From positions 16,956,601 to 17,020,600 of the forward strand of contig OY987237.1 of NCBI GenBank assembly GCA_963920705.1: a stretch of DNA of 64,000 nucleotides, read 5' to 3'. Under the pieces are notes generated by a model. That model was given only the letters and a program-made list of their open reading frames with translations. It did no database searches and had not been told where the DNA came from. The translations under genes and the position numbers were made by a program. This document shows positions 3,001 to 56,009 of this stretch, piece after piece. The stretch is from Odiellus spinosus (Eukaryota; Arthropoda; Arachnida; Opiliones; Phalangiidae). How positions within the stretch are numbered: the stretch's first letter is position 1; each line of letters opens with the position of its first letter.

Positions 3001-3390
3001 TAGTTTGTCCGTCCACCTTTATTGCCTAGTCTCTACGCTAAACCCCACTCTAAGCCTAAACGTCATGCATTGCAATGCGGGGGAAGTCTACTCTCTAGTC
3101 ACGTAATAAAATCGTTCGATCTAAATGATTCGAATTTCTAATTTAAATTTAATTAATCGCTTTGAATTAAGTTTTAATACAAACTTCGTTTAATATCGAT
3201 CTTAACGTTATGTCGTACGGATATTTAGATAATCTTAGCGTTTTATAAAATCAGAGCGATAAAAGGGGTAAGAGATAAGGCCGAGGCTTAACGATTCTGA
3301 CAATTTATATCGTTTAGGGAAAGTTCAGAAACGTTATTACTATTCAAAATATCTTCGAACTAAAGCGAAATTAGATCCTAATTCGTGGTT
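1..3390. other. Region without a recognised gene
   Basis: No complete gene could be recognised on either strand. The longest open stretch is 1332-1634 on the plus strand (101 codons with no ATG near its start), treated as a finding. A repeat copy related to sequence near 45.4 kb lies at 2127-2210. Scattered T-rich tracts occur. The last bases before Rab30 look like an intron or promoter region ending in a pyrimidine-rich splice acceptor. The start and end of any gene here could lie outside the window. Confidence 0.5.
2127..2210. repeat. Dispersed repeat, family with AAGTACTTGA and TACGTCRTATAT motifs
   Basis: This stretch reads AAGTACTTGA, then GTTCCAGAAAT, then TACGTC-TATAT. The same order and near-identical wording recur at about 45383-45492, and a weaker partial copy lies at 18520-18625. 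No coding capacity is seen. It is probably a short non-autonomous element whose ends I cannot place. Confidence 0.55.
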
Positions 3391-3402
3391 TATTCTTTTC
3401 AG
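3391..3402 (+). promoter_or_regulatory. Splice acceptor just before the Rab30 start codon
   Basis: A pyrimidine-rich run ending in CAG (TATTCTTTTCAG) stands 12 bases before the Rab30 ATG. It implies either an unseen upstream 5'UTR exon or a spliced-leader trans-splicing site. The sequence alone cannot tell which. Rab33 has a similar AG 8 bases before its ATG. Confidence 0.55.
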
Positions 3403-3414
3403 CTTTCTAATGAA

Positions 3415-7326: not shown

Positions 7327-8254
7327 CTAACAAGAGCAATTAGAGTCAAAGTCGCGTTCCTCGCTTATGGGAGTTTGTCTGGATCGCTCGTGTTGGGAAT
7401 GTTTAGAATCTACGATGATGTTAGAGTTTCTTCTATTGTTAGGTTGAGCCGCGGGTGGCATCATTGGTTTAGAGTTCTTAAGTTTGTGAGCCAGGGTCAT
7501 AAAAATGGCTTCCACATGATTAGCTTCCGAATCCTCTTTAGCGGATGTTTCAAATAACGGCATTTGGTGACTATCGGCGAAACGTTGAGCTCGATTTGTA
7601 GAAACGGCCGATGATTTGGCGTCGGATTTATTCCCCACCAGAATACGCGGAATCTGGAGTTAAATTATCGGATATTTATAGGAAAAAGGTGGTTTTAAGA
7701 AGCCAATCGTTATTCGATTTACCTCGGAAGTTAGATTATTTTGATCGCATTCTTCTAGCCATAAAGGTAGATTTTCGAAACTAGAGATTTTTGTCACGTC
7801 GTAGGTGAAAACGACGGCGTGAACGTTTCGATAATAATGTTGAACCATTGATTTGCGAAATCGCTCCTGACCCGCCGTGTCCCATAATTGTAACTATATG
7901 GAAAACGAAAATATAACGCCCTAGATCGAGACAAATTTTCATTTAAATAATAATTGGGGAACCAACTTTGATTCTTTCGTTGTCAACTTCGACCGTTCGT
8001 TCTCGAAAGTCGACTCCTATCGTAGCTTCGGTCTTTTTAGGGAATGAACCCGTGCAAAACCTTAATTAGGAAGATATAACGCTTGATTATTAGATACTTT
8101 AACGGGAAACTAACGTCGTAATAAAAGAGTAATTAGGCTTAATACGAAACCTATATGTTAGACAAGTCTTCCCGACGTTCGAATCGCCGATAACTATGAT
8201 TTTAAATATACGATTCTGTTTTTCGAAACTAACGTTTCCCGTTATTTGCGCCAT
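7327..8254 (-). CDS. RAB33: Rab33-type small GTPase
   Basis: The gene has four coding exons: 8254-8151, 8060-7967, 7893-7723 and 7653-7327. The introns are 90, 73 and 69 bp, and the protein is 231 residues. The P-loop GDSNVGKT lies in exon 1, [12 protein letters not shown] in exon 2, and [20 protein letters not shown] opens exon 3. NKSD and LFETSAKED are in exon 4, followed by [14 protein letters not shown]. These phrases match Rab33A/B closely. The protein ends NCSC, a CxC double-prenylation motif. In mammals Rab33 acts in Golgi traffic and, through Atg16L1, in autophagosome formation. The donor of intron 2 is the weak AAA/GTTGGT; it was chosen because it alone restores phase and the conserved KLQLW. 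The variable tail (about 45 residues before CxC) is rich in Asn, Ser and Arg. An AG 8 bases before the ATG resembles an acceptor. Confidence 0.94.
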
Positions 8255-16570: not shown

Positions 16571-18684
16571 AACGCGCGGAACAGTTTGATAGGAAAAAAA
16601 AGGCTTAACGTAGAAAAATAGCTTTAATTTTAGTTTCGAGTATCCCTAGAGCCCTTAAATAATGTTTTCAGATAGATAGAAGCGCGGAGAATTTAAATAT
16701 GATTGTTAAAAGGTTTTTAAATTGCCCCAAAATTGAAATTAAATCTTCAATTTTCTTCGTTAAAATCCCATAGACTTTTATGCGTATTTTTCGGGTTAGG
16801 TTAGGAAATTGACCTCGATAATGAATACGTAAACTATATAGGACTATTTCTGGCCCCCCTTTTTTCTTCATTAGTCATTTTCTATAAAGTTATTGTTTAT
16901 ATATTAAAAGAATATTCTTTGGGCCTTCTTTGAAAATATACGTGACATCAGTCGCGTCAACTCCTTCGATAATTCCTCCAAGGTTATAAAAACAAATCCT
17001 CTTTGGCGCGTCTCCTTGGGGTTTCCTTTTCTCTGACGCTTACGTGACGGACGATAAGTCAACCTCTTTTAAAAGTGAAATCGCGCGGCCGAGTTTATAA
17101 ATTAACGCGCGCGTTTCGTAGCTTTTGGAAATCGAGCAAAAACCCTTTAAGCGAGTTATTTCGATAAAAATCAGCTTTCCCAATTATTTATTATTTCTCG
17201 TTCGGTTATCGTTGAAAGAAATCCGATCTTCGCTTACTTACCGCGCGTAGCTTCGCTCTCCCGATAGCACTGACGAAAGGGACGACATTCGCCACGACCT
17301 AGTTCCTTAAATCGCTTCCTTTTAAGACTGCCACCGTTTAATTTTTTACCTTCTGGTTGCGGAGTAGTTTTTATTACGCCGAAAGATTCGGAAATTATTT
17401 GGGCGAAACAGTTCGCCCACGCGAGACAACTTCGACTCGTAAAGTCACGCTGAAACTGTTTATCGCATTCCGACTATAAAATCATCAAAAGCTCTCCTAA
17501 TTATTTATCCCTAGCTAATTGGTTGGCGAAAGCCACCTTATCCCTTAGCGACAGTCAACTCTATAGAGCAATCAGGCGACCATAGTCATGACGTAATATC
17601 GCCGGGAATGTTTATTTTAAAAATATCGAAAGTGGCGATTATAAAATATATTTTGAATCGTTTTTGAAGGTTTTTTTTTTCTCGAACTCTACTCGATTTG
17701 GATGGGGCGAGTTGATTCGTAATCCTTGTCAGCCTCGCTTTAAGCTATGTTTTATAATATCGGTGGTCTGGAAGTTTGGCGGCGTTGCTAGAGTCTTTCA
17801 ATCAGTAAGTATTTGTATCGGTTGCCGGCTCGGATGGCCGCGCGGGTACTGAGATACATTGTAGCCAGAGTTATTTTCATTCCTTTTTTCGCTTCGACGA
17901 CCGATCTATCGAACCAAGAAAAAAACTCACCCCCAATTACTAAGTCGAAGAAAGAGATTTATCGGCCGCGCTCAAACCACCCCAATTATATCCCGATCAT
18001 ACGGTTCAGCGTCTGAACGTCTACCGTCGAGTTGAACTAGCGCGGCTATAAGACTGGTATCGGGGGGTGCTTGCCTGGCTTTGGAAGGCGTTGAAAACTC
18101 GCCACGATCGAGTTTCGTTCCGATCGCGGAAAAAAGTAAATGAACGAGACGATTTTGTAGCTCTTAAATTCTTGTTTAGACTTTGTCTCGAAGTTACAAC
18201 TTTGACGAACTAAAAGAAACCAGGCTTTTAAAGGAATCGCGAATACGACGACTCGACCTCTTCCCAAACCCCATTTATCAAACGCCTATTCCATTATAAG
18301 AAAAGATGAGGGATGACTGGGAGATTTCGTGTCAGACGCGTTATTGGTTCTAAAGCGAAGCTGGCAAGCTTTTTTCACCAACTACAAATGGAAATGAAGT
18401 CGTATTTTCGGGTTAAAAAAATCATTCAAAATATATATACGTATGTAGAATAGAACCAAATTACAGCGACACTAAAACGTACTGATTTTATAATCGCCAT
18501 TTTCGAAAATTGCTCGCGATACTACGTCATCATGGCACTATGGTCACGTGATTTCGTTAAGTACTTTATCTACATCGAGTCAACTAGCTTTCCTACGAAA
18601 ATTTAGAATACGTCGTTTTAATTGGTAGAAATAGGTGTTAGTTTGACTTTAAATTCGTTTGGTTCCTTTGACGTTTCCTTTGTG

Positions 18685-20427
18685 ACGCGTGTGGACGGGC
18701 TGTTGACGCGTGTGGACGGGCTGTTGACGCGTGTGGACGGGCTGTTGACGCGTGTGGACGGGCTGTTGACGCGTGTGGACGGGCTGTTGACGCGTGTGGA
18801 CGGGCTGTTGACGCGTGTGGACGGGCTGTTGACGCGTGTGGACGGGCTGTTGACGCGTGTGGACGGGCTGTTGACGCGTGTGGACGGGCTGTTGACGCGT
18901 GTGGACGGGCTGTTGACGCGTGTGGACGGGCTGTTGACGCGTGTGGACGGGCTGTTGACGCGTGTGGACGGGCTGTTGACGCGTGTGGACGGGCTGTTGA
19001 CGCGTGTGGACGGGCTGTTGACGCGTGTGGACGGGCTGTTGACGCGTGTGGACGGGCTGTTGACGCGTGTGGACGGGCTGTTGACGCGTGTGGACGGGCT
19101 GTTGACGCGTGTGGACGGGCTGTTGACGCGTGTGGACGGGCTGTTGACGCGTGTGGACGGGCTGTTGACGCGTGTGGACGGGCTGTTGACGCGTGTGGAC
19201 GGGCTGTTGACGCGTGTGGACGGGCTGTTGACGCGTGTGGACGGGCTGTTGACGCGTGTGGACGGGCTGTTGACGCGTGTGGACGGGCTGTTGACGCGTG
19301 TGGACGGGCTGTTGACGCGTGTGGACGGGCTGTTGACGCGTGTGGACGGGCTGTTGACGCGTGTGGACGGGCTGTTGACGCGTGTGGACGGGCTGTTGAC
19401 GCGTGTGGACGGGCTGTTGACGCGTGTGGACGGGCTGTTGACGCGTGTGGACGGGCTGTTGACGCGTGTGGACGGGCTGTTGACGCGTGTGGACGGGCTG
19501 TTGACGCGTGTGGACGGGCTGTTGACGCGTGTGGACGGGCTGTTGACGCGTGTGGACGGGCTGTTGACGCGTGTGGACGGGCTGTTGACGCGTGTGGACG
19601 GGCTGTTGACGCGTGTGGACGGGCTGTTGACGCGTGTGGACGGGCTGTTGACGCGTGTGGACGGGCTGTTGACGCGTGTGGACGGGCTGTTGACGCGTGT
19701 GGACGGGCTGTTGACGCGTGTGGACGGGCTGTTGACGCGTGTGGACGGGCTGTTGACGCGTGTGGACGGGCTGTTGACGCGTGTGGACGGGCTGTTGACG
19801 CGTGTGGACGGGCTGTTGACGCGTGTGGACGGGCTGTTGACGCGTGTGGACGGGCTGTTGACGCGTGTGGACGGGCTGTTGACGCGTGTGGACGGGCTGT
19901 TGACGCGTGTGGACGGGCTGTTGACGCGTGTGGACGGGCTGTTGACGCGTGTGGACGGGCTGTTGACGCGTGTGGACGGGCTGTTGACGCGTGTGGACGG
20001 GCTGTTGACGCGTGTGGACGGGCTGTTGACGCGTGTGGACGGGCTGTTGACGCGTGTGGACGGGCTGTTGACGCGTGTGGACGGGCTGTTGACGCGTGTG
20101 GACGGGCTGTTGACGCGTGTGGACGGGCTGTTGACGCGTGTGGACGGGCTGTTGACGCGTGTGGACGGGCTGTTGACGCGTGTGGACGGGCTGTTGACGC
20201 GTGTGGACGGGCTGTTGACGCGTGTGGACGGGCTGTTGACGCGTGTGGACGGGCTGTTGACGCGTGTGGACGGGCTGTTGACGCGTGTGGACGGGCTGTT
20301 GACGCGTGTGGACGGGCTGTTGACGCGTGTGGACGGGCTGTTGACGCGTGTGGACGGGCTGTTGACGCGTGTGGACGGGCTGTTGACGCGTGTGGACGGG
20401 CTGTTGACGCGTGTGGACGGGCTGTTG
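18685..20427 (+). repeat. Minisatellite: 83 identical 21-bp units
   Basis: The unit ACGCGTGTGGACGGGCTGTTG repeats 83 times without visible change, then ends in a partial unit ACGCGA. One plus-strand frame stays open because 21 is a multiple of 3 and gives a (TRVDGLL)n string of 611 residues with flanks. That string has no ATG, no signal peptide and no related sequence, so I do not call it a gene. The perfect identity implies recent amplification or continuing homogenisation. Copy number in an assembly of such an array may be unreliable. Confidence 0.97.
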
Positions 20428-21630
20428 ACGCGAGTAAATATTGATTGGTATGTTTAGTCTTAATTCGTAGCGTCGCGATCCAAATAAATGCGAGTTCGCC
20501 TTTTAAACGCTCGCTCCATCATCGTCTCGGAATTTTTCAATAAATAATTCCAACTAATAATTTCGACCAAAATTCATAAATAGACGAAGAATTTCAAAAT
20601 CCAATAAATAGAGACGATGAAAACGAAATTCTCCTCGAAATTACTCGAGTTTTCACTATTTTTTTTTCCGCTCCTCCAAATAAAACTTTACTTTCCCGCG
20701 TTATTACGTCATAGCGCTGTTTAAACGAAGCGCTTCAACCAAATTTCTAAACAGTCGTAATCACTTTATAGGGGTCTTTTAGAAAACTTCCAAATTCATC
20801 ATTTTTTTTTTTTGTCGATTTTCGTAAAAACTTAAAAGTGGTACGAAATTTGAGGTCGATTGTCGGGGGCGTATCCGCGAAAGAAATCCGATAGCGATAC
20901 AATTTAAATCAACTCGGAATTGAAAAAGATACGGGCAAAATTAAGTATCATTATAATCTAGGATACTTTTTAAAGTGGCTGTGTCACCGATGCCTTTTTC
21001 CTGATTTTATTATTAAGTTATTTTCATTTTTAATTTAAAATTTCTTTATTGTTCCCGTAATTTTTCGGTGATCTAAATTTACCTTTAATTAATATTAATT
21101 AATATTAACGTTTATATTGAAATATATTAGCGTAGTTTTGAGGCGCGGTTAAATTGTACATTTTATATCGATGGATAATTCGGTGATGGCGTCACTTTGA
21201 TCCAAAAATAACCCCCGAAGCCTTTCATGCCGGAGATTTATTTTTTCTTTATTTGGTTAATCGAGTATCTGTCGTACGTATGTCCTCCTATTTAGCGAAA
21301 GGGTTAAGATTAATAGTTATTTTCCGTAGATATAGCGCTTGATAAATGAGCCTCGGGCGAAGAAAGCGCGTAGGGCGTAGGGCGGGGCCGGGGCTGTTAA
21401 TGCTCGCGTGTACGTGTTTCAATTTGAATGAATGACTTCGGGCTCACCCCCCTTTTTAAATTAGTTTTCGACATAGAATTAAATTAACCACCAAATCGTT
21501 GGGATATTAGCTCCTTCTCTAATAGGCTTAACTATTTCGGCTTAATTTAGGGAGCCGCTATTCTAGCTTGTCCTGGAGCCAATCGTATTTTCGTCAAATT
21601 TCTTATTTGTCGACTAGATAGTGACTTTTT

Positions 21631-38935: not shown

Positions 38936-41588
38936 AGTCGTTAGTCCACCTTCAATCTATCTTCTCGCAATCTAAACACACTTATTACTTAATACAATTC
39001 CAGTTTAATACGTTCAGAGAGAAATTTTCTCACCCTCCCAACCAAACTTTTAAGGTAAATTTAAGAAAAAGTTCGTGTATTTGGCCCAAATAAATAAACT
39101 TGTCGCGTGATCCGTCTATTCTCGAATCGATTTCATTCGATTTCTCGAACCAGTTTAAATAACCGATTCGATTTCGACAACCGATAGACGAAGCTACGAT
39201 AAATCGATTTATAAAGATAACGCGTGACGCTTAAATCGATTCTACAGAGCGCTCGGTTTGATTTTTTTTATCATTTGAAATCGATTTAGAAACGTTAGTG
39301 CGAACGTAGCTTTCCCGAAGCGATCTTCCCTAGGCTATTCCTTTTTTTCATTTCGAGAGATTATCTCTGGCAGTGGCGGGGCGGCGAGCTTTTATATTTG
39401 GCAACTGAAGCGTTTTTCCACTATTCGTCTAGTTCTCCGGACATATCCCCCCCCCCCCCCCCGCCCCCACCTCTTCCTTCCAACTTATCGCGTAAGGAAT
39501 GGGAAAAAAAAAAAAAGGATCTAAAAATTTTCCCCTTTTCCATATTTGTTATCCGAGAGAGCGATTTACGTTCGTAATTTATTAAAGGAAAACTAAAAGC
39601 CAAAATGAATTTCGAATTAAAAAGATTTAGAGATTGTCAGCATTTCGTTCGAGAATTCGCGTGGATTAGCTTTTTAGAAATTGAAAGGTATTGGTGACTT
39701 GATCAGGATTAAGTACTTTATCGAAGACGACCGCGTCACTCGCGACAAAGAATTAACTTTTTTGGGGGTGGGGGGGACAAAGAATGGATCATTTGTCCCA
39801 AATTTCCCTTTTTAAAATCATCCCTAGTATCAAACGGAAGCTCGAGAGGAATTTTTATTTATCAATCGCGCTATGAAAATTAAGCCTGATTCCTATGGAT
39901 TAAAATAATCGGGGAAAATGTACTTGTCGGAAATACGCGAAAATAAAATTGATAAGATTCCGAATTGTAATTTCGGCGATTAATCGAGAGATGAACGCTT
40001 TAAAAACCTTTGGCCCTGAACTAAAATATCCTACTGTCGTAACTAGGCTAGATTGTAGACGAATGAAAATAATATTGAACCAGATTTGGCGGGATGGTTC
40101 CGAGAGCGAATCTCGCCGCGCTTGTCGAGGGGATTTTATTAAATGAAAGGTTCGTGGGTGTATCGGATTATTCGATCGGAAAGTTTCCAATTCTTCGTAC
40201 ATTTTCGAGACACTAATCTTATTTTTAGAAGAAGAATCAATCATTTTGGTTCGCTCTTGATCGCGGTTTCCCCTTTAAAAGAACGTCGCTCTAAATGCCA
40301 ATAGCCTTTTTTTTCTCTTCTCGAGAGCTTTATGTTAATTTGAAGAAGATCGGCGCGCTGGAAATCTCCGATGGAGTTCGAATTAAGATAAGAAGACGTC
40401 AAAGTATCGCTTTTAGACTTGATACAATGTTGCCAAAGTTAATCGCGAAACGAACGAACGAACTCGCCGTATCGCTCGAATAAGAATTTCAATATTTTCA
40501 ATAAGGCGTACCAGCGCGAGCTAGTAATCATCTCTATAAGAACTCCGGGTCTTCTTTTAATTCTTCAAACTACCTTTCAAAATTTATTTACGGTTAATTT
40601 AACAACGTTTAAAGGCTAGCTCCCACTTGGCCAGATTTTCACCTTGCCACTTAAAAATTGTTTTATTAATGATTATTATCTAATAGGCGTAATGTTTGGT
40701 AAATACGTAAAATATCCGTTTCTTCGACGTCCGCGCGATGGTCAGGATTTGGACCAGATATTTCCGATTCTATTAATTAGTCTTTCCTTTATTTGTCGAC
40801 TGGTCATCATTGCCCAGTTCGGTGTCGCTAGGAGGTGCCAATAGCTAGAGAGTTACCGGAAGTAGAAATACCCCCCGCAGTTTCCTCTGAGGTAATAATA
40901 GCGGGAGATTTAGACGTTTTCCACTCGAGTTTCGACGACCTACTCGAATCGCGATCGAGGGTCAAGAGCTAGCCCGCCAAATATCGTAGCCCTTAAAGGC
41001 CCTATCTGCTCTAGAATTTACCGAACGCTCAGTCAAGCTTCGCTTTTTACGATTTGTTTCGTCCAACGTCGTCCGCTAAGCGAGAAAAGAAGGCGACTTT
41101 AAAGGGGCTTCGAAGGAAAGTTTCGATATAGAGTAACCCTTTCCGCGCGGGTTAAGTCAAAGAATCGCGTTCGAGAAACGGCTATTATCCCTTAATTGAG
41201 TCCGGTCCGGGTCGTATTTACGAGTAGGCACGGTACTTAAGGAGAACCTCGAGTTCAGGTTCGTGTCGCGCGATAGAGGCGAATTGGACTCACCGAATTT
41301 GTTGGCGGCGTCCTTGGTTCCGTTAACGGTTCCGTCTAGGTGACTTTGCAAGTAAAATCCATTCTGGCAATAGAGACGACACCTGAGGGCGCCGAAGGAA
41401 CCGACCCCGACGGCGCTATTGGCTCTTCTTTTGACGCGAAGCGCGAATTCCGTCTGATAGTTTCGCGGAAAAGTGTCTTTCGGTCGTTCGGCGAAGGGCC
41501 AAGGCGACTTTGAAGGTAATAGCGGTCCCGAACGGCAAACGGCGACGGCTAAGAAAGCGAGGACGATTAGGGACCCATTCAGTCCCAT
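25263..41588 (-). CDS. FGF9/16/20: Fibroblast growth factor, FGF9/16/20-like
   Basis: Three exons, 41588-41294, 29830-29724 and 25589-25263, join in matching phases (1, then 0) and encode 242 residues. Exon 1 opens with a hydrophobic signal peptide (about residues 1-18), has a furin-like RVKRR at 51-55, and then the FGF core start LYCQNGFYLQ with DGTVNGTKD. Exon 2 reads AILEMLRVAVKLVSI, then GNYVCMNRKGKMYGS. Exon 3 carries the conserved cysteine in ECVFVEEY, LYIGLNRKGRARRGKK and FYILPV. Both intron positions are those of vertebrate FGF genes. The ILE...VAV.LVSIR run points to the FGF9/16/20 subfamily. The tail after the core is about 45 residues, rich in Glu, Asp and Pro, which is unusual. 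Product: secreted ligand for FGF receptors with a basic heparin-binding surface. The introns (11.5 and 4.1 kb) are filled with repeats, unlike other genes here. Confidence 0.92.
29955..30161. mobile_element. MITE family A, internally deleted copy
   Basis: CAAAAGTCTATAAC-ATGCCATAAAAGTAAACAGCG on the left is matched inversely by GCGTTGTTTACTTCTATGG and AATAAAGTCA-GACTTTTGG on the right. The inner part is unlike the other copies and shorter. It lies only 125 bp from FGF exon 2. Confidence 0.82.
30740..30785. repeat. Dispersed repeat, GGATTATCTCGTC family, inverted copy
   Basis: GGACGAGATAATCCGCCAATATTTGGATAAT is the reverse complement of the phrase at 12769-12817 and 32883-32935. Confidence 0.6.
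30921..31087. mobile_element. MITE family C (GCGTTCRCGCTAGAG ends)
   Basis: The left end GCCGCGTTCGCGCTAGAGAG then TTTCAAACGGTTT is matched inversely on the right by CCAAATCGGTTTCGAGTCTC then TAGCGTGAACGCGC. Single ends of the same type occur near 27545, 32025 and 42560. It is non-coding, inside FGF intron 1. Confidence 0.8.
32883..32935. repeat. Dispersed repeat, GGATTATCTCGTC family copy 3
   Basis: TATCCAAATATTTTGCGGATTATCTCGTCCAAATTATAA matches 12769-12817 with few changes. It lies in FGF intron 1. Confidence 0.6.
34280..34808. mobile_element. Long-armed foldback element
   Basis: Two arms of about 145 bp (34280-34432 and 34664-34808) are inverted copies of each other, with a spacer of about 230 bp. 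Both contain GGCGAGCC-TTTTTGAGATACA, a TCATTTTAGAG phrase, ACCACCAC-CCTAAAGCG and TTATCTCAGCCGCTATT. Translated outward-to-inward, both arms read similar peptides (LEK-TTTPKA then LSQPLFV), with some differences at the third codon base. The arms may derive from a coding sequence. No transposase is seen. Confidence 0.85.
38900..38937 (+). repeat. CT microsatellite
   Basis: A near-perfect (CT)n run of about 38 bp in FGF intron 1. A similar tract lies at about 41926-41950, upstream of FGF exon 1. Confidence 0.9.
39085..39315. mobile_element. MITE family D (AATCGATTT-rich), copy 1
   Basis: It contains TATTCTCGAATCGATTT, TCTCGAACCAGTTT, ACAACCGATAGACGAAGC, ACGCGTGACG and finally AAATCGATTTAGAAACGTTAG. 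The same ordered phrases occur at 49005-49245, 54925-55205 and, inverted, at 50285-50465. It is non-coding, in FGF intron 1. Confidence 0.8.
40112..40153. repeat. Short dispersed repeat, GCGCGTGTCGAGGG family copy 2
   Basis: CCGCGCTTGTCGAGGGGATTTTATTAAATGAAAGGTTCG matches 22150-22187 and 54790-54828. It overlaps a 114-codon minus-strand ORF that I therefore regard as repeat-derived. Confidence 0.55.
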
Positions 41589-43810
41589 CCTACGAATTCG
41601 GAAGCCGACCAAGATCCTTCTCGGCGTCCGTCCGAACCGTGGACGGCGGAGGTCTCCGACCCGTTCATCGGTGACGTCCGGAGGTGGTCGACTCCCCGAA
41701 ACGCGTCTTCTTTCACCCGCGGGTCACGAGCCGATTAATTCTATACTCCTAGTCTCTAAAGACTTTTCCGCCTAAATTCGACCATCGTCGCTTCGCGAAT
41801 AAACCTAGACCAACGACTTTTAAAAACGTAAGTCGGTTGGGATAATCCTGGACTGACTCTTTTAATTCTCTCGTTCCAACGTCTTACCAGGACGGAAGAC
41901 GCGTGCCGAGTGAGTTTCGTCTCCCTCTCTCTCTCTCTCTCTTTCTCTCTAGTCTCTACGGTTGTATCGACACCGCGCGCGAAATGTCGAGAGAAACGAG
42001 TCGACCTTACTTCCATTGACTCCCCCATCCAGAAGCCCGCGAGCCTTAATTATCCACCTATCCGACTCTGAGGTTATCACTTACTCTCTATAACCAACTT
42101 ATTCTCTATTACCGATTTTAAGTCTAATTATTAGTAACGTAACGTCTTCAAATTACCCGGAGTTTCTCTTATACTTTCTTCCAGTTTAAACATGGCGAAA
42201 AACGTAATAATCCCCGAATCTCTAATCTCTAAAGCTACCGTAGATTAATTAAACTAGGCCTCGTTAGGCTTAATCGACGTCACAAACTCGCCGCTTGTTT
42301 TTTTTTTTTTTAATAAAAACTGAGCCCATTTTGCGATGAAGTTTAAACATAGGGCATCTAGTTTAACGTTCCACACGGACAGACAGACAGACGTTCCTAG
42401 AGAATTATACATTTTTATTTGTCGCGATTATAGGATGTGCCAATTTTAATTACGATTAATTTAATTTTCAAATAAACGCGACGTAATTCAACTTATTTTA
42501 TTCCCCGTTTCACTCGAGCTGACCCTAAAATTTTTAACGTCTGACCTTTCCAAAACGGTTTCAAAGTGTGTAGCGTGAACGCGCCTTAAATATTATTTCG
42601 TAACTCTAACGTAACACTGAATCCCTTCCCCCTCCCCCCTCTCCCCGATTAAGAAAATAAATTTAATACTAAAAACATTTCATTTAATTCTACTTATTCC
42701 TCTTCCTTTATTAAAACACTAAATATTAACTCTCATCCGTAAATATATAAGCGGGCTAGATACCGACGGAAAACGTGGGAGGGAAGATTTCGAATGGGGG
42801 GGGGGGAACACTCTCTCCGGAAAACTTAATACGAACACCATCTATTTGCGAATGTTTAAAGCTAAAGATAGTACTACGGGAATTCTTCGTAAAACGCGTA
42901 GAACATTTGTCTCGAAGAAAAATTACTTATGTACAGACCGCGTAACGTTAGTTTGAAAATTCGTCCGCTCTGTCGTCCGCTTTAGTTTTGATTTCGAGGG
43001 CGGCTCTGTTGGCCGCGTGTTTTGTTTCAAACTCGACGTTAAATTTGAGTAATTAATTTCGTTAACGACTCTAGTTGGATTATTATAAAATAAGCTAAAT
43101 ATCGGAAACGCTCCGAGAAAGAATGAAATCCTTAATAGGAAGAAAAGATTCGAAAATGATTTCTCCAAACCCAAAGGTACAGTTTCTATTCTTTATAGAA
43201 AACATTCGGAACTTTTACGATCATTTTTAACGCGTTACGTCGTTTTACCATAAGTAATTTTTAGCTAGAAATACGATACTTAAACTTGTAAACTTGTATT
43301 TTGAAAATACCGCGACGTAATTACGGAAGTCCTGCTGGAAAGTTCCATTTTCCCTGGATAGATCGCGACACTTTTCAAGGAATCTTCCAGCACTGACGAG
43401 AGTTTCGTCTCTCTTTCTCCTTTGAAAAGGGAAAGTCTCGCGAAATAAGACGCGTTTTTTGACGCTGTTCATTGTCAGAGCGGATTAAGAGATTAGATAG
43501 AAAAATTGAGAAAGAAACGTATAAATAGTAAATTAATTCAAAGCTTAGAATAAGATCAATTTTCTTTATTTAAGAATTAGCCAAGTGAAATCAAACGGAT
43601 TTGTAGTTAAACTAAACTCGACACTAATTATTAAGTTTAATGATAACATTCTTTACTATATCTTTACGAGTGTTTTCATCGTTGCCTGGATATTTTAGAT
43701 TATCCGCCTGGCGGCAACGCTTTCAACTAGCTTCAAATGTTCGCGCCTTTACCTTATAAAAGTAACGAGTCGGCGACGAAATAAGTAGACGAGTATTAAT
43801 ATATCTTCGC
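41589..43810. other. Intergenic region upstream of FGF and downstream of protease A
   Basis: No gene is seen. The first 300 bp, before the FGF ATG, are richer in G+C and probably include its promoter and 5'UTR, but I see no clear TATA box. A CT microsatellite is at 41926-41950, a T-run at 42299-42311, a single end of MITE family C near 42530-42595 and a G-run near 42797. Confidence 0.55.
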
Positions 43811-43818: not shown

Positions 43819-43913
43819 TAATTTTAAATTAGTATTTTACAATATTACAAATCGTAGTTCGAGAAGCCAAAGTTAATCTCAACCCTAGGATTAGTAAACT
43901 TGGTTAACGTCGT

Positions 43914-45633
43914 CTAACCGGAAGCGACGGTATCGAGTACCCAATCGCGGTAAGTCGGAACGCGAGCGAAAACGCCCGGGTAACGAGGCCAAGCGCATCC
44001 GACTCCCCAGGAAGTAATACCGGCTTGGTACCATTTTCCATCGTCCAAGAGACATTGAAGGGGTCCGCCGGAATCTCCCTGTAACCAACGAATAATATAT
44101 TAGGGGATCAATCTTGTTGGAATTCGCCGTCTCTTAATCAATCGGTCTTACGTTGCAAACGCTCTTTCCGCCTTCGTCGTAACCGGCGCAGACCATTCCA
44201 TCGGTGACGGTGTTAACGAACAAGAAAGCCCTTCGACACACGCTGTTCTTCCAGATTGGTACGTCAACCTTTTGCAAAACGTCCGGTTGACTTCCCTCTG
44301 GAAATCGAAGGAGCGTCAGCGCCATTATAAAGGATATAGCCTATTATTTTTTCGCTTACGGTGTTTGGTTAGTCCCCATCCGGTGGTGGTGCAGACGCGT
44401 CCGTCCAAGTTAGCGTTCTTATCGGCGAGGCAAGAAACTCCGATATGACTGTGAGCTCCGTCCAAGTCCAAAGGAGTAGCGAGTTTCAAAAGGGCCACGT
44501 CGTTGTTGATGGTTCTAGAGTTCCAACTGGGGTGTTTGATGACCTGTTAAGGAAACCCTCACTCTCGTAAATATAGAGCCGCTTGTAGTCTGACACCCCG
44601 CCCAAAATGTCTTAATCGTTCTTACCTTCGTGACGGCTAAGTCGACTTCGGTACCTTCGTCGACTTTGAGGTTATGTTCGCCGACTCGTACTTGGTAGGA
44701 TTTAGGATTGGCTGATCTTTAAATTAAGAAATAAAAGAATGTATAAACGTTATAATCGCGCTTATTTGATGTCGCGTTGGCTTACCCGTCGACGCAATGG
44801 GCGGCGGTCATAACCCATTCCTAGATTACAAATATACGTTAAAGATTTAAGTTAACTTCGTCCTTAATAATATTAGCGCTTCGTTCGTTTCAGGTATACC
44901 TTGTCGATGACCGATCCGCCGCAAATGTGACCTCGAACCGCTCCGGTGTCCAAGTTAAGCAGACGGAGGGAAATCTGCCAAGGCCATTCCAAAGGTTCGG
45001 CGTCTTCGCCTCCGACGATTCTCCACCCTGGCTTATCAAATCGCGACGACCTAACGCCACATTCTAAGGATTTAAAGATTAGGTAAGTCCCAAAAACGTT
45101 TATTTCTTATAATGGTAGTTTGATTGTACGCCTATACTGAAGTTAAGTCATCCTTACTCGTTAAAACCAAACTAATATAATCGGACTAGCAAATCGATCC
45201 TTAATACCAAATTTATTATTCACTCGAAATGCCCCCCCCCCCCCCATTCTCCTCAATTACCATTTCTTCCAATTCAATTCGTCTCGTAATTGGTTAGTTA
45301 TCCTATTTCGGTAACGACTAACTTAAATAAACTCGTAAGAGATGAAATGGTCCAATCCCCGCTTTACTACGTCATCGCGCTAAAAAGTACTTGATCTAGA
45401 TCGAGTCAAAGTGTACTTTTCGTACGAATATTATGGTTAATTACGTTCCAGAAATTAAGTTACGTCATATATCGGAACAAAAATGAGCCATAAATATTAG
45501 ACATTTAATCGTTAAGTTTATAATTACTTGGCGCGTCAACCGGTCTTAAAGAATGGTGGCAGTACTTACCTCTCGCGGCCAAAGCCGCGACGCAGAGCGA
45601 AATTAGCGCAATTTGAAAGAGCCCGGCCGCCAT
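43914..45633 (-). CDS. Chymotrypsin-like serine protease zymogen (paralog A)
   Basis: Seven exons, 45633-45570, 45063-44900, 44820-44786, 44716-44626, 44543-44360, 44297-44152 and 44078-43914, encode 282 residues. A signal peptide ([20 protein letters not shown]) leads a short propeptide with one cysteine, which fits the C1-C122 bond of chymotrypsins. The activation site is R36 before IVGG. The triad is His84 (TAAHC), Asp133 (NNDVALLK) and Ser231 (GDSGGP). The S1-pocket residue (position 189 of chymotrypsin) is Ser225 in KSVC, and SWGVG supplies the open Gly216, so aromatic P1 specificity is expected. Role: secreted, trypsin-activated digestive-type endopeptidase. It shares exon phases with paralog B but has one more intron (44821-44899), just before EWVMTAAHC. 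The protein ends in VASG. A TATA box lies about 42 bp before the ATG. Confidence 0.93.
45383..45492. repeat. Dispersed repeat, AAGTACTTGA family copy 2
   Basis: AAAAGTACTTGATCTAGATC, then a TTAATTACGTTCCAGAAAT phrase and TACGTCATATAT. It matches 2127-2210 and lies in intron 1 of protease A. Confidence 0.65.
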
Positions 45634-47995: not shown

Positions 47996-48562
47996 ATGAC
48001 TTTAAAGTACCACGCGGTATTAGGTTCGGTAACGCTCGTGTTTTTCGCCCACTTTTTAATGAGAGAAACGGCGAAGGCCCAACTAGAAACTGTCACGACC
48101 AAGATTGAAGCGGATGCCAGTCTCAGCGGTGCAGGAGTCAAGCCAAACGGTTCTGGAACGGAGGCTGACGCCACGCTCGTAATAAAACAGGAAAATCCGC
48201 GAACTCAAGGTGAAGGATCAGCTAGGCAAAATGACGGAAGCGGAGGTGAAACGCCCGGTGGCGGTGGAGGTGGAACGCCTGGAGGTGGAGGTGGAACGCC
48301 CGGTGGTGGAGGTGGAACGCCTGGTGGTGGAGCTCAAAGGCAACCCCCAACACCCTTAGTAAAGATCCTCCGAAACTTATTGAATAAACTGAAAAATTTC
48401 TTAAATAAAACGAGACTAAGTTTGAAGACGGCCGCCGCTCGAAGATCATTTCGAGTGGGATACGTCCCAGCTGGTTCCATTCGATATCAACAACCAGGAT
48501 TTGGAGCTTCCGGCTTCGGTCAACCGGCTCTCCGACCCGTCATAACCCCAAATTTTGGTTAA
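47996..48562 (+). CDS. Secreted Gly-rich protein ending in PNFG
   Basis: Single-exon gene for 188 residues; the family is not recognised. The start at 47996 is the first ATG of the open frame and begins a clear signal peptide (hydrophobic core at about 8-21, ending near AKA28). Residues 30-85 are polar, rich in Thr, Glu and Gly. Residues 86-112 are repeats of TPGGGGG. Residues 119-150 are basic and amphipathic, rich in Leu, Lys and Asn, and the last 38 residues are Gly, Phe and Pro-rich, ending RPVITPNFG. The layout of signal, low-complexity body, basic helix and glycine-ended tail is shared by three other genes at 51-56 kb. AATAAA is at 48708-48713. CAG lies directly before the ATG. Function is unknown; a secreted structural, mucous or antimicrobial role is only a guess. 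Confidence 0.85.
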   Translation: MTLKYHAVLGSVTLVFFAHFLMRETAKAQLETVTTKIEADASLSGAGVKPNGSGTEADATLVIKQENPRTQGEGSARQNDGSGGETPGGGGGGTPGGGGGTPGGGGGTPGGGAQRQPPTPLVKILRNLLNKLKNFLNKTRLSLKTAAARRSFRVGYVPAGSIRYQQPGFGASGFGQPALRPVITPNFG

Positions 48563-48707
48563 GATTTATTACAGGGAGAATCAATAACCTAAAAACGAGG
48601 AGGTTTTTATCGATACCTTCGAGTTTAAATTGAATTTGAAGCTCCATCAATGTTTTAGTTAATTTATTACGAAATTTAAGTTTAAATAAAAATCACTGTT
48701 TTCTCGC

Positions 48708-48713
48708 AATAAA
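48708..48713 (+). terminator. Polyadenylation signal of the PNFG gene
   Basis: AATAAA followed by a T-rich stretch, 145 bp after the stop codon; an earlier AATAAA is at 48685-48690. It is 9 bp from the minus-strand signal of protease B. Confidence 0.7.
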
Positions 48714-48721
48714 GTTTTTAT

Positions 48722-48727
48722 TTTATT
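48722..48727 (-). terminator. Polyadenylation signal of protease B
   Basis: AATAAA on the minus strand, about 40 bases after the protease B stop codon. It sits almost on top of the plus-strand signal at 48708, so the two convergent transcripts probably overlap at their 3' ends. Confidence 0.65.
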
Positions 48728-48767
48728 TACAAGTTATTTTCTGCGGGTGCAATTTGTAATTCAGTTT

Positions 48768-50746
<1,979 letters not shown>

Positions 50747-50786
50747 GCTTCAAGCTACAAGTGTTTCGTTAAGGCTTCGAAGCTAT

Positions 50787-50794
50787 CTTTTATA
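50787..50794 (-). promoter_or_regulatory. TATA box of protease B
   Basis: TATAAAAG on the minus strand, about 41 bases before the ATG, in the same relative place as in paralog A. Confidence 0.72.
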
Positions 50795-51216
50795 CTCTAT
50801 CCGCGCCGGATCCTGGAACTACGCCTTATCGTTTAACTTAATCCGAGATTAACCAATATCTTAAGCCGCCATAAACTTAAAGACCGTTAATCTGGTTAGG
50901 TTTACGACGCCACGTTGATCTTTTATTAGACTTTATCGTATAAATTGCTCAATTATTTTACAATTTCTTCGAAATAACGAGAGCTAAGATGAAATTAGAA
51001 TGTTCAAACGTGACAATTTACGCTTTTAAATTCTATATTAACTCTATATTAATATAGAACGAATCAAAACGTTATTATCATTGTAATATTAAATTTAAAA
51101 TAATTTCTAATAATAATAATAATTAATATACGAATATAAAGATATTCTAGATGAAGTAAAATTTTCCTCGGAGTGTCCCGTGTACCAAAAACCATAGTTT
51201 CCTATGAACTTTTATA

Positions 51217-51222
51217 TTTATT
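51217..51222 (-). terminator. Polyadenylation signal of the PNLG gene
   Basis: AATAAA on the minus strand about 100 bases after the stop codon at 51321. Confidence 0.5.
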
Positions 51223-51320
51223 TTTCGTGCCAAGATTCTTTCGTGAAAATTTCGTGTATTTTAAAAGATTAGAAGGTTATTTTCAGTCGCTTTCGGAATT
51301 AATTCAAAGTAAATTTTCAA

Positions 51321-52139
51321 TTATCCGAGATTAGGTTGAGGTCGTCTCTGCGCCTGCTTAGAGTTAATATTTCTTTGTTTCTTGACGTTTTCTAGCGCAT
51401 CTTTCACATTTTTAAACTTATTTATGGTCAATTTCTGATTCGTTCGATTCTCATTCTGGCGCGAAGGTCCATTTCCGTTTGTAGGTCTGCCATTCGCCTT
51501 ATTCTTATTCCTAGTTCTTCCATTTACATTATTCTTGTTCGTAGCTCCGCCATTTACGCCATTCTTGTTCACGGATCCGCTATTACCATTATTGTTATTA
51601 GTATTCCAAGGTCTTTGCGTCCTGGATTTAGGCTTAACGCTAGAGGAATAAGGCTCGGGTGTATTGGTTTCTTTTTCGATTGAACTAGACGCTGCCTCGG
51701 ACGTCCGTGTCTCCGAGACCACGGGTGAATTGGTGACGGTCGCGACTTTGTTGGCAGTTGTTGATGGTTTCGGTTCAGTCGAAGGATTCTTAACGTAATT
51801 CGAAGCTGTAGTAACAACTCCTCTCTGATTGGTAGTCGGCCTCGATGAAGGACCAGTTGTTGGAGATATCGCGGACGTTATTGGCGAGAACGTAGTTGAG
51901 ATCGCGGTCATCGGAGTTGTTGGTGAAACATCTAAATAATTAAAACTTATCAACTAATAGAGTGTTTTTTTTTTGTAATTGGCGGATGGATACTTATTCG
52001 AGGCTGCGAGTGTGGTTCGCGTCAAAATATTCTTGACGGCTCCTTTAAAGGCGGAAAAGTCCCAAGCGGCGTCTCCGGGTTCGGCGAAGATACCCGCTAA
52101 TATTAGGCCTAATATAACAATATTTAATCTCAAATCCAT
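51321..52139 (-). CDS. Secreted Thr/Ser/Asn-rich protein ending in PNLG
   Basis: Two exons are proposed, 52139-51994 and 51945-51321, giving 256 residues. The 48-bp intron has the donor AA/GTATCC and the acceptor GATAAG. A nearer consensus acceptor (TTATTTAG, 51934) would put the long frame out of phase, so I prefer the first. Exon 1 encodes a signal peptide (MDLRLNIVILGLILAGIFA) and a short segment with an FSAFKGAVKNIL helix. Exon 2 is mucin-like: Thr, Ser and Pro for about 80 residues, then Asn and Gly repeats with NKNGVNG and NKNNVNG, then a basic stretch (FKNVKDALENVKKQ) and the end RRPQPNLG. Many Thr and Ser suggest O-glycosylation. No family is recognised. The end resembles RPVITPNFG of the gene at 48 kb. 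Confidence 0.8.
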
Positions 52140-52771
52140 ATCGAAAAATTTAATATTCAAAATGATTTTTAACGTGGAGTATATTTAAGGAAATCCGTTG
52201 GTTTTATATCGAATTTGAAGCGGTTGAGCAAACACATTCGACGAATGAGCTCTGGGCGTTCCTTCGATCATTTTCGTATCAAATAAATCCATCTTTTGTT
52301 TAAAGATTTTTCCGTAACCTTAGATTCGCTTGTTTAATAAGTAACGTCACTTAAAGCCTGAATCAATAATTGAAGACAAATGCTTCGAATTTCTAACCAT
52401 CAAAATTCCAAATTATGTTTTCTATATTTAACCTAGACAATTTGAGAAGCATTTTAAAGCTTTGTCCCTTATATCGCTCGGATTTGTCGTAATCTTTCGT
52501 CTTTGACCGCCAAGAAGCGGAGTTCGGCAATCGACAAAGTTTTCGTTAAATTCTTACTTACGACCTTAGCTTACTCGTAATTCTGATCTTGACACCAATT
52601 TCTCAGCGCTGTTTGCGCAACTTTCCCCATTCGAAGCTAGCTCGTTCTGATAAGACGTTCTAGTTCCTTACGTAATTTTGAGGCTTAATTGGTTGCTAAA
52701 TGTCAGCCATTTGTACTTAATAACGAGGGAAAAAAGAAAAAAGCATTTGTTACTTTTGATTTTAAATTAAA

Positions 52772-52777
52772 TTTATT
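52772..52777 (-). terminator. Polyadenylation signal of the first VYG gene
   Basis: AATAAA on the minus strand about 30 bases after the stop codon. Confidence 0.6.
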
Positions 52778-52806
52778 TTAGAACAAAAATAAACGCGGCT
52801 ATGAAT

Positions 52807-53262
52807 TTATCCGTAAACCAGATAATAATTGTATCGACCGTCCGATCCAATTTGTCTGGCGTAACCTCCTCCCAAATACGATTGGCTCAGTAACAGTCTC
52901 AAAATATCTAAAACGTTGAAGGTTTGAGTAACAACCGGAAACCCTCCTCCGCCACTTCCTCCTCCGCCGCTTCCTCCGCCGCCACTTCCTCCACCACCAC
53001 TTCCTCCGCCGCTTCCTCCGTCACCGCTACTTCCACCATCGTCGCTTCCGCTTCCACCATCGTCGCTTCCGCTTCCACCATCGTCGCTTCCGCTCCCACC
53101 ATCGTCGCTCCCGCTCCCACCATCGTCGCTTCCGCTCCCACCATCGTCGCTCCCACCATCGTCGCTCCCGCTCCCACCATCGTCGCTTTCCTGACTAGCT
53201 ACTAACTTAACCCGAAGAAGTGTCAACACTAGTATCAGGACTAAGGCGGAACATTTCAGCAT
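52807..53262 (-). CDS. Secreted Asp/Gly/Ser repeat protein ending in LVYG
   Basis: Single-exon ORF of 151 residues from an ATG. Residues 1-23 form a signal peptide (MLKCSALVLILVLTLLRVKLVAS). Residues 25-77 are an acidic repeat of SDDGGSG units, and about 78-107 are Gly-Ser with GGGSG units. The last 44 residues are ordered in look: VVTQTFNVLDILRLLLSQS can form an amphipathic helix, and the end is RYNYYLVYG. A TATA box lies about 51 bp before the ATG and AATAAA about 30 bp after the stop. The acidic repeats could bind calcium, but that is inference. The plan matches the other glycine-ended genes in this cluster. No known family is recognised. Other-frame ORFs here are by-products of the repeats. 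Confidence 0.85.
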   Translation of the reverse strand: MLKCSALVLILVLTLLRVKLVASQESDDGGSGSDDGGSDDGGSGSDDGGSGSDDGGSGSDDGGSGSDDGGSGSDDGGSSGDGGSGGGSGGGGSGGGGSGGGGSGGGGFPVVTQTFNVLDILRLLLSQSYLGGGYARQIGSDGRYNYYLVYG

Positions 53263-53312
53263 GATTTTAGATGGTCAAAATGTTGAATGAGTTCGGTCTC
53301 TATTTCGACTCT

Positions 53313-53323
53313 CTTTTTATATA
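53313..53323 (-). promoter_or_regulatory. TATA box of the first VYG gene
   Basis: TATATAAAAAG on the minus strand, about 51 bases before the ATG at 53262. Confidence 0.65.
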
Positions 53324-53329
53324 AGTTTA

Positions 53330-54260
53330 GTTTTAATTTTTATCAAAAGTTCTAGGTTAATAATTGAGTGTACAGTTGCCTATTTAGGCGCAGTCCAATT
53401 ACGAAGCCTATTATTATTAGTCTTATATAATTATACGTATAGTCAGAAGTACGTAAAAATAAATCGGAGGTGAAGTTTTCATCTAGGTTTGGTTTTATTG
53501 GAGCAGTCTTATCGATTTCCAATTCTTAAATTTAATGAACGAACAATTTACAAAATATATTTTGAGTTATATAGGTAGATAGATAAGATGTTTTAGTTTT
53601 GAAGGGAATACGCCAATCGAGGTTGAAATGGAATTTTAATTCAGAGATAAACCTAGTTACTTCCCCCCCGAAGTTTTATACACTTCTGATACGATTTAAT
53701 GATTTCCCCCTCTCCTTGTTAGCGCGTCCTTGAAAGCTCCAAAGGTTAGAAATAATTTAGTAACTTAACGTAGATACCCGCGCGTAATTTCCGTCCTAGT
53801 CAGTTGTTTCAATATTAACGCGTATCAAAAATTGCAATCGATTCGAAGTAAAAAGTTATATTTTTATAGTTTCGTATTCAAACAGCGTCTCCGTACAAAG
53901 ATTATAATATCTACTTTTAAACGTTAATGTACTTGTACTTAAAATTAGCCGCTGAAGCCACATTCGAAACGTCCTAGCGCACGCTGATCACTTTTACCTG
54001 ACCCACCACCGTTATTTGTTCTTCTTAAAGGGTTAAACTACTAGATTTTCGTAACGAGTTATTTCTAATCGACGTCAACCGTTATAATACGCTTAAAAAC
54101 CGTGAATCTAAACTGGCGCTAATTCAACGTTAATAATTAACGATTAATTATCGACGTCGCCTACTAGACCGCGTTTCAAATGGATTAAGAAATAAAGGAA
54201 CTTTATTAAGCGCGTAATAATACTCGGATTTTAATCGTCGCCAGTTTTAATCGAAGCTTT
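53330..54260. other. Intergenic region between the two VYG genes
   Basis: No ORF or repeat of note was recognised. It should include the promoter of the gene at 53262 and the 3' end of the gene at 54350; a minus-strand AATAAA at 54266-54271 fits the latter. Confidence 0.5.
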
Positions 54261-54349
54261 CTAAGTTTATTTTAACCGCGAATCGATTAAAAATAACTCT
54301 TTTTTTTCCCAAAGTCTAGTCGCCCGTTGAATTAGTTTTTGAACTTATT

Positions 54350-56009
54350 TTAACCATAAACGACAGTTTGCGCTGGCCTAATGTTGCGCATCCTTTTATT
54401 TTGCTCCATTCGTTTCATTGTTTTGAGCATATTTTGCATCGCTCTCAGTTGCTTTTTGTTTTTGCCCTTCTTTTTCTTTTTCTTGGGCTTTTTCTTGCCA
54501 CCGCCTCCACCGCCTCCACCTCCACCGCCTCCTCCTCCACCTCCCGGTTCCATACCACCAGCGGGTTCCATGCCACCAGCCGCTGGTTCCATGCCACCAG
54601 CGGCTGGTTCCATGCCCCCGGCTGGTTCTCCACCAGCTGCTGGATCGCCTCCACCCGCTGGTTCTCCACCGGCTGGTTCTCCACCCGCTGGCTCGCCTCC
54701 CGCCGGTTCTGATTCCGCTCCAGCCGGTGCTGGTTCCTAGTAATAAATTTAATTTCTAATTTCAAATTTCATTCGTCCGAGTGTTCCAAGGCGCGTGTCG
54801 CGGGGATTTTATTAAACCAAAGGTACAGCTGGGAGTCTTACTCTTAATTTAATGACAAAATCCGGATTATTGCGCAATTTAGAGACGCGTAAGGAATGTT
54901 TTACTAATGAAACGTGTCTAAAAAGCCTCGGAATCGATTTAAACCGTTTGAAAACGTTTGGCTAGAGTCGCGCGAACGGAAAACCGTCTTTTCTCGAATC
55001 GATTCGATATCTCGAAAGTGCTTCGGGAACCAGTTTGGTAGCGATTCGTCTTGAAGAACAGATACGTGGATCTACGATAAAAATGATTTCTAAAGATAAC
55101 GGGCGTGAGGTTTCAATCGATTCCTGGCTGGCGATTCGAATCGAGCGGTTTGATTTTTCCGGTTTCAAATCGATTAAGAAACGCTAGTGTGAACGCGGCG
55201 TAGAAAAATTTCATCATTTTCTTGTTGGGCTTCTTTTAAAGCGTTTTAACAAAGTAAAGAGGGCCAGATAATTTAATAGTTTGCTCATTTTAGGACCCAG
55301 TTTAAATCAACTTTATTTATTCTTTTTGGCCAAGAAAATACTTCTTATTAAATGGGTTTTGTTTTTAAAAATTAGATTTTAATCATTTTGTTAAATTTTG
55401 CTCGTGGACCGAATACTTTAGGGTTCTTCCCTTATTTAGAGCACGCGATATCGTTGGAAAATCGATAGAAAAGGTCAGGGAAAAACCCGCGAAAGTCAGG
55501 GAATTTGAATCTGATGAAAACTGTTCCAAAACCAACAATCCAATAAAAATGCTCCATTTTTCCCATTGATATATAATTAAAATTGACTTTTTGGAGGACA
55601 TTTTAAAGGAGGGTTGAAGAAGAAAATCGAGTGAAATAAGAGCATTATTAATTAAAACATTATAAAAATATGTTTTAGTCTCGATCGCTGTGGAGAGGCG
55701 GCAAATGATTCGAATTAATCGTAAATGAACTTCCAACGTACCTTTGGCTTTCTTAGGCGCGATTCGACCAATTAAATTAATTAATATTTATTTTAATTAC
55801 GCGTCTAAACAATTTGAGGCAACCAATAAAGCTTTTTCTAGCTTTTTTCTCACGTTTTTAGATCAAGTCCAAAATGACCAATTTTTAATATTAACTCTAC
55901 GTAAAATTCCGTTAAAATGGCTTACCGGTTCTTGTCCATCAATGAGATTGGCTAATAATATAGCCGTTAATAAGGATGCCAAACAGAAGAGCCACCTTTG
56001 AGTAGCCAT
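54350..56009 (-). CDS. Secreted Met/Glu/Pro/Gly repeat protein with Lys-rich tail, ending VVYG
   Basis: Two exons, 56009-55926 and 54736-54350, are joined in phase 0 across a 1.19-kb intron; the product has 156 residues. Exon 1 is almost exactly the signal peptide (MATQRWLFCLASLLTAILLANLIDG) and ends QEP before a GTAAGC donor. Exon 2 continues EPAPAGAESEPAGG, with repeats of GEPAGG and MEPAAGG, then about 16 glycines. A block of about 20 mostly lysine residues (KKKPKKKKKKGKNKK) follows. The end is a basic helix (LRAMQNMLKTMKRMEQNKRM) and the tail RPAQTVVYG. No family is recognised. The strong positive charge contrasts with the acidic neighbour at 53 kb. The intron holds a family D MITE and another repeat. 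The joining of exon 1 is inferred from phase, donor and acceptor. Confidence 0.8.
54790..54828. repeat. Short dispersed repeat, GCGCGTGTCGAGGG family copy 3
   Basis: GGCGCGTGTCGCGGGGATTTTATTAAACC then AAAGGTA matches 22150-22187 and 40112-40153. It lies in the intron of the gene above. Confidence 0.6.
54925..55205. mobile_element. MITE family D, copy 4
   Basis: The longest copy of the family, from GGAATCGATTTAAACCGTTT to AAATCGATTAAGAAACGCTAG then TGTGAACGCGGCG. The ends are imperfect inverted repeats of each other (CTAG with GCGCGAAC against GTGAACGCG). It lies inside the 1.19-kb intron of the 54-56 kb gene. Confidence 0.85.
55465..55510. repeat. GTCAGGGAATTT repeat
   Basis: AAAAGGTCAGGGAAAAACCC then AAAGTCAGGGAATTTGAA. 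Related strings occur near 58866, 60265 and 62580-62665, so this is a dispersed element fragment. Confidence 0.55.

Follow-up and report, generated by a model that had tools for sequence, protein, structure and literature searches.

Four clustered harvestman genes for secreted proteins share a hydrophobic residue-glycine ending that may serve alpha-amidation

We analysed a 64,000-nucleotide stretch of the genome of the harvestman Odiellus spinosus (the window, C15:16956601-17020600; contig OY987237.1 of GenBank assembly GCA_963920705.1), in which positions 47996 to 56009 hold four genes for secreted proteins, termed here G1 to G4. The four proteins follow a common two-end plan, with a signal peptide at the start and a bulky hydrophobic residue, glycine and a stop codon at the end, and this plan is real and unlikely to be the work of chance. 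Our preferred reading, to which we give a probability of about 40%, is that G1–G4 are lineage-restricted secretory precursors whose terminal glycine would act as the donor for alpha-amidation. Shared processing appears more likely than demonstrable common descent as the source of the common tail.

Gene models and the shared ending

The initial annotation had described four open reading frames (ORFs), each combining a signal peptide, a low-complexity middle and a glycine-final tail, and all were found in place. G1 (47996-48562, plus strand) is a single-exon gene for a secreted protein of 188 amino acids, which carries TPGGGGG repeats, the cationic amphipathic segment LVKILRNLLNKLKNFLNK and an end reading LRPVITPNFG-stop; its tail RPVITPNFG lies at 48533-48559 on the same strand, the final glycine being the putative amidation donor. 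The remaining three genes are on the minus strand. G2 consists of exon 1 (51994-52139), encoding the signal peptide and the segment AWDFSAFKGAVKNIL, and exon 2 (51321-51945), encoding a Thr/Ser-rich and then Asn-rich body that ends in QRRPQPNLG-stop (tail RRPQPNLG, 51324-51347). Its protein has 256 amino acids, and its intron of 48 nt falls in phase 2 after codon 48. Enumeration of in-frame GT-AG introns in G2 gave two combinations that leave an open frame, from which we preferred 51994/51945 as having the better donor by eye; the acceptor is less certain than the rest of the model. G3 (52807-53262) has a single exon for a secreted protein of 151 amino acids with SDDGGSG and GGGGS repeats and the tail RYNYYLVYG (52810-52836). 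G4 starts with the signal peptide in exon 1 (55926-56009) and continues in exon 2 (54350-54736) with EPAGG/MEPAAGG repeats, a poly-Gly run, a Lys-rich helix and an end reading IRPAQTVVYG-stop (tail RPAQTVVYG, 54353-54379); its intron of 1189 nt lies in phase 0 after codon 28, and the protein has 156 amino acids. Signal peptides were recognised by a hydropathy scan for G1, G2 and G3 and by reading exon 1 for G4.

G1–G4 are probably lineage-restricted secretory genes. They look like real genes because of their signal peptides, their poly(A) signals (AATAAA within 150 nt past the stop codon in 4/4 genes), TATA boxes in two of them and, in G1, G3 and G4, repeats that vary mostly at third codon positions. 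At the best period, 82 of the 170 repeat mismatches pooled over G1, G3 and G4 are at third codon positions (10/18, 28/53 and 44/99 between neighbouring units, respectively), compared with an unconstrained expectation of one third; the repeat positions are not independent, so the excess carries no P value, nor was a non-coding repeat of similar divergence used as a control. This test covered the whole repeat regions, with the period set by DNA identity alone.

The TATA box of G2, TATAAAA, lies at 52202-52208 on the minus strand, 69 nt before the ATG. That of G3, TATATAAAA, lies at 53315-53323 on the same strand and has a TCATTC initiator-like site 33-35 nt further on; in a scan for TATA-initiator pairs of G1–G4 and two neighbouring protease genes, chy1 and chy2, pairs were detected at G3 alone. 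The motif TATAWAA stands no further than 110 nt from the ATG of G2, G3, chy1 and chy2, that is in 4/6 genes, against a background of 5.4% of random 110-nt stretches. TATA boxes fit tissue-restricted expression.

As controls for the ending we took stop-to-stop ORFs of at least 60 amino acids in the 264 kb around the genes, most of which are not genes. An ending of Phe, Tyr or Leu followed by glycine and a stop codon is present in 4/4 genes and in 9/1090 control ORFs (13/1094 with the four included). Glycine is the final residue of 69/1094 ORFs (6.3%), or 65/1090 without G1–G4, and the residue before it is hydrophobic in 4/4 genes compared with 12/65 glycine-final controls (P = 0.0021), a statistic that, like the others on the tails, is overstated by an unknown factor because the initial annotation had chosen the four genes for their tails. 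Among 27 signal-like ORFs in the same 264 kb, three are glycine-final, namely G1, G3 and a proline-run ORF at -97856 that we did not take for a gene; G2 and G4 are undetectable in such a scan since their signal peptides and tails are on separate exons.

Amidation and competing explanations

According to the amidation reading, the arachnid amidation enzymes PHM and PAL (PAM) would use up the terminal glycine as the protein passes through the secretory pathway, leaving a C-terminal amide on Phe in G1, Leu in G2 and Tyr in both G3 and G4. G1 and G4 would each yield an amidated peptide or domain, cationic and amphipathic, either freed from or tethered to the glycine-rich spacer, and it might act on membranes as part of a defence or of an exocrine secretion. 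From G2 and G3, amidated secretory proteins would result. The gene structures, the codon-position bias in the repeats of G1, G3 and G4 and the tail statistics are shown by the analysis, and expression, the presence of PHM, amidation, cleavage and membrane activity are the steps that we infer here.

A bulky hydrophobic residue followed by glycine and a stop codon is the direct substrate form for alpha-amidation, and all four genes have it. In G2 and G4, a basic pair stands ahead of the tail (RR before PQPNLG and KR before MRNIRPAQTVVYG, respectively). A helical segment rich in Leu, Lys and Asn had been proposed for all four proteins; an outstanding amphipathic helix was confined to G1 and G4 (P = 0.011 and 0.036, respectively), with a charge of +5 over 18 residues and moments of 0.72 and 0.61. 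The C-terminal parts of G1 and G4 have net charges of +13 and +19, and their middles −4 and −13; an acidic middle before a cationic end is the layout of peptide precursors. A defence peptide would be matched best by G1 and G4, whose spacers are acidic and whose helical ends are strongly cationic; G2 and G3 would fit one poorly.

Several observations, besides the choice of the genes by their tails, weigh against amidation. G2 and G3 are without an outstanding amphipathic helix (P = 0.34 and 0.51), the middle of G2 is basic (+14) and not acidic, and the tail part of G3 is nearly uncharged (+1), and G3 lacks a basic pair. No TATA box was detected in the 110 nt examined before G1 or G4. Structural glycine-rich secreted proteins can also end in glycine. 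On the enzyme side, the genome searched (443.07 Mb in 286 contigs) contains six exon matches to PF03712, the copper monooxygenase C-terminal domain, at three places, all above the cut-off; this domain, common to PHM and the dopamine/tyramine beta-hydroxylases, fails to separate the two, and the search covered PF03712 alone. The odds of amidation are unaffected by this ambiguity, since sequences of a dual amidation system are reported for the harvestmen Siro and Trogulus in the part of PMC6669573 available to us, which also describes the amidation enzyme system of scorpions as dual (PMC6669573).

A further difficulty concerns G1, whose stop codon is abutted by a dispersed repeat (48557-48633, plus strand), of which 12 other copies, 79-87% identical, were found in the genome. 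Of the 12 matches, three begin inside the final codon or at the stop itself, eight at 5-11 nt past the stop and one at 24 nt past it, and one repeat locus, L004, reads GGTTAAGA, as does G1. The repeat may have supplied the G1 stop codon, making the terminal glycine partly accidental. By eye, we detected no genes like G1–G4 beside other copies of this repeat, at six loci of the 12 copies. In the same check for dispersed repeats, the tails of G2 and G3 have no other genomic match, and the G4 tail region has four, all in DNA ~180 nt or more past the stop codon; at this sensitivity the DNA holding the stop codons of G2, G3 and G4 is without other matches in the genome.

The best surviving alternative, which we hold to be unlikely although worth serious attention, is that these are structural or mucous secretory proteins of the cuticle, a glue, an egg or genital secretion or the gut lining, in which the spacers would be the functional part and the final glycine a matter of composition or convergence. 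Low-complexity spacers are indeed the largest part of all four proteins (82-193 residues), glycine makes up 33-53% of three of them and only 6% of the G2 middle, and there is no cysteine beyond the signal peptide in any. The predominance of third codon positions among the repeat differences is likewise in keeping with this explanation, as are the protease neighbours with TATA promoters, a setting expected of exocrine tissue. Composition, however, leaves the penultimate residues F, L, Y and Y unexplained, given how few of the glycine-final controls have a hydrophobic residue there, and four very unlike spacers would have to have arrived at one kind of ending.

Descent of the four genes from one ancestor by tandem copying, followed by repeat turnover in the middle that left the tail alone recognisable, was the proposal of the initial annotation, and we consider it improbable. 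In its favour, the genes are clustered within 8 kb; an Arg that stands 7-9 residues from the end of every tail, with the glycine counted, may point the same way. The tails of G1 and G4 (LRPVITPNFG and IRPAQTVVYG) reach a score of 20 over 10 residues, higher than 99.86% of 2080 control pairs (P = 0.0014; P = 0.0076 against 5000 shuffles). The pairs that had been singled out, G1/G2 and G3/G4, do not hold up in the same comparison: G3/G4 scores 11 (P = 0.037 against controls, 0.030 against shuffles) and G1/G2 scores 10 (P = 0.046 and 0.075), values uncorrected for six comparisons and indistinguishable from chance once these are allowed for. The remaining three of the six tail pairs, at P of at least 0.65 against controls over 10 residues, are no better than unrelated tails. 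Taken as a mean, the six pairs give P = 0.016 and 0.013 over 10 and 12 residues, which would suit common descent, but P = 0.11 and 0.058 over 8 and 15 residues.

Single-gene ancestry is not supported by these sequences: the bodies are unalignable, protein searches of the genome found no paralogs, the intron phases differ, the flanks have nothing specific in common and the tail similarity is marginal. The lack of an alignable body, already remarked on by the initial annotation, was borne out by blastp among the four, which returned just G2-G4 at E = 4.5, using an early splice model of G2. Presence, place and phase of the introns all differ (none in G1, phase 2 in G2, none in G3, phase 0 in G4), and the coding strand of G1 is opposite to that of the other three genes. 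A search for duplication relics in the DNA between 46.5 and 57.5 kb of the window, covering direct and inverted repeats, detected just dispersed-repeat copies and runs of glycine codons. Further members elsewhere in the genome, whose absence had been named beforehand as telling against a family, were not found by protein search: G1 matched itself alone, as did G2 in its early splice model and G3 with its repeats shortened, and G4 (repeats shortened) gave non-self matches just at E = 0.285 and 0.578. Inspection by eye of the ORFs in the 264 kb revealed no further members either. Pfam assigned none of the four proteins (G2 in its early splice model) to a family at E ≤ 1, and of 39 candidates drawn from 5.8e9 proteins for residues 115-188 of G1, none matched at E ≤ 10; at the level of sequence search, orphan status beyond this genome is shown for G1 only.

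Still less likely is that G1–G4 are four independent orphan secreted genes whose glycine ending is a coincidence helped by selection by eye. Such a coincidence would be eased by the 6.3% of local ORFs that are glycine-final, by the dispersed repeat adjoining the G1 stop codon and by the three tail pairs without similarity, yet four endings of this type at the control rate would occur with a probability of ~5e-9, before the choice of motif and genes is allowed for. A further arrangement, likewise improbable, is one in which the genes of this harvestman lineage would be related only via their processing ends, a signal peptide and an amidation tail of the form [L/I]RP..T..[F/Y]G having been kept while unrelated repeat bodies were recruited between them.

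Neighbouring genes, repeats and genomic setting

The genes lie in the order chy2, G1, chy1, G2, G3, G4. The gene chy1 (48768-50746, minus strand) encodes a protease of the trypsin/chymotrypsin family in six hand-spliced exons (Pfam Trypsin, E = 5.2e-71) and has a TATA box ~50 nt before the ATG; chy2, a second protease gene on the minus strand with approximate ends at 43895-45633 and a TATA box of its own, was recognised by the similarity of its exons to chy1 (44-71% identity). The description of the four genes as interleaved with chymotrypsin genes was generous, since one protease, chy1, sits among them, between G1 and G2. Protease exon matches also form a large cluster at C4:23501859-23688802 (~190 kb). 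Copies of a dispersed element occupy window positions 49006-49271 and 50268-50430, inverted to each other and both in chy1 introns, and 54927-55230, in the G4 intron.

Elsewhere in the window, exons of two Ras-superfamily genes, Rab-like by reading, lie at 3382-3965 (plus strand) and 7330-7893 (minus strand), and Pfam detects one exon of each gene. A secreted ORF at 41163-41591 (minus strand) begins like an FGF protein (Pfam FGF, E = 5.6e-4 and 20.3 bits, under the 24-bit cut-off) and probably represents the initial coding exon of such a gene. A minisatellite at 18672-20441, with a period of 21 and nearly uniform units (15 mismatches in 1749 comparisons), leaves several reading frames open on both strands.

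The window belongs to a contig of 17.21 Mb and lies 192 kb from the contig end; it is probably part of chromosome 13 of Odiellus spinosus. The mitochondrial contig in the genome searched has 16,074 bases, and among named hits its ND2 comes nearest to those of the harvestmen Oligolophus tienmushanensis (71% identity), Opilio parietinus (59%) and Phalangium opilio (58%); the published account, in the part available to us, gives 443.70 Mb, 310 scaffolds and a 16.07-kb mitochondrion for the species (PMC11503004). GC content is ~41% in the window compared with 36.0% given there for the chromosome (PMC11503004). The ratio of observed to expected CpG in the window is 1.58 and that of TpG 0.66, the opposite of a methylation-depleted genome. 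Clustered COX1-like stretches on contig C17 (at 1.1, 3.0-3.1 and 4.2-4.4 Mb), with internal TGA and TAG, are probable nuclear copies of mitochondrial DNA. A 29-base degenerate pattern has 83 matches genome-wide, 68 of them exact matches on both strands of a repeated-unit array at C1:15781758-15989506 (~208 kb); its spacing was one base off, which makes it uninformative on the tails.

Meaning and comparison with known systems

Secreted proteins that are rich in repeats and restricted to one lineage form a common class, and for this reason the novelty of G1–G4 is modest unless amidation or a family recognisable by its tail alone is shown. If the amidation reading is true, the four would be predicted amidated products of Opiliones that can be found via their last two residues, not by homology, and this two-residue rule could be used to choose candidate peptides in other arachnid genomes. 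Should the reading be wrong, they would be an ordinary case of that common class. We found no description of these proteins in the open-licence PMC literature. A study of harvestman nuptial gifts concerns, in the part of its text available, free amino acids and says nothing on proteins (PMC6131725). The secretory peptides of Opiliones seem to have received little study, longipin being the sole harvestman antimicrobial peptide found in the literature searched. Longipin is described, in the accessible portion of its report, as a cationic peptide of 18 residues with a final Phe that resembles tick heme-lipoproteins and may represent a fragment of some larger protein (PMC5172563); by eye, it bears no resemblance to G1–G4.

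Precursors of amidated neuropeptides resemble G2 and G4 in having a basic pair, a short peptide and a glycine. Unlike them, G1–G4 have, by eye, no repeated peptide copies or flanking Gly-basic-basic sites, and they contain long Gly/Thr/Asn-rich spacers.

Cupiennin-type precursors of linear cationic peptides in spiders contain acidic segments, a point of similarity; they are venom-gland, multi-peptide precursors with short linkers, and harvestmen, to our knowledge, have no venom gland. G1–G4 differ from this type in having one peptide-like end per gene, placed behind a long repeat spacer. As far as the available part of the source goes, all cupiennin families but two have a terminal glycine that serves amidation (PMC7889660), and their combination of a cationic helical peptide with a terminal glycine is the one seen in G1 and G4.

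Also comparable are the acanthoscurrins, serrulin and the ctenidins, listed in the portion of the source at hand as amidated glycine-rich arachnid peptides (PMC6784228). Judged from that portion, they share with G1–G4 an arachnid origin, glycine-rich stretches (G2 excepted) and an amidated C-terminus, which for G1–G4 is predicted. In these peptides the glycine-rich part is the cationic active peptide, whereas in G1, G3 and G4 it forms an acidic spacer, with anionic middles of −4, −18 and −13, respectively. The amidated residue, again going by that portion, is Lys in the acanthoscurrins and serrulin, in contrast to the Phe, Leu or Tyr that precedes the final glycine in G1–G4.

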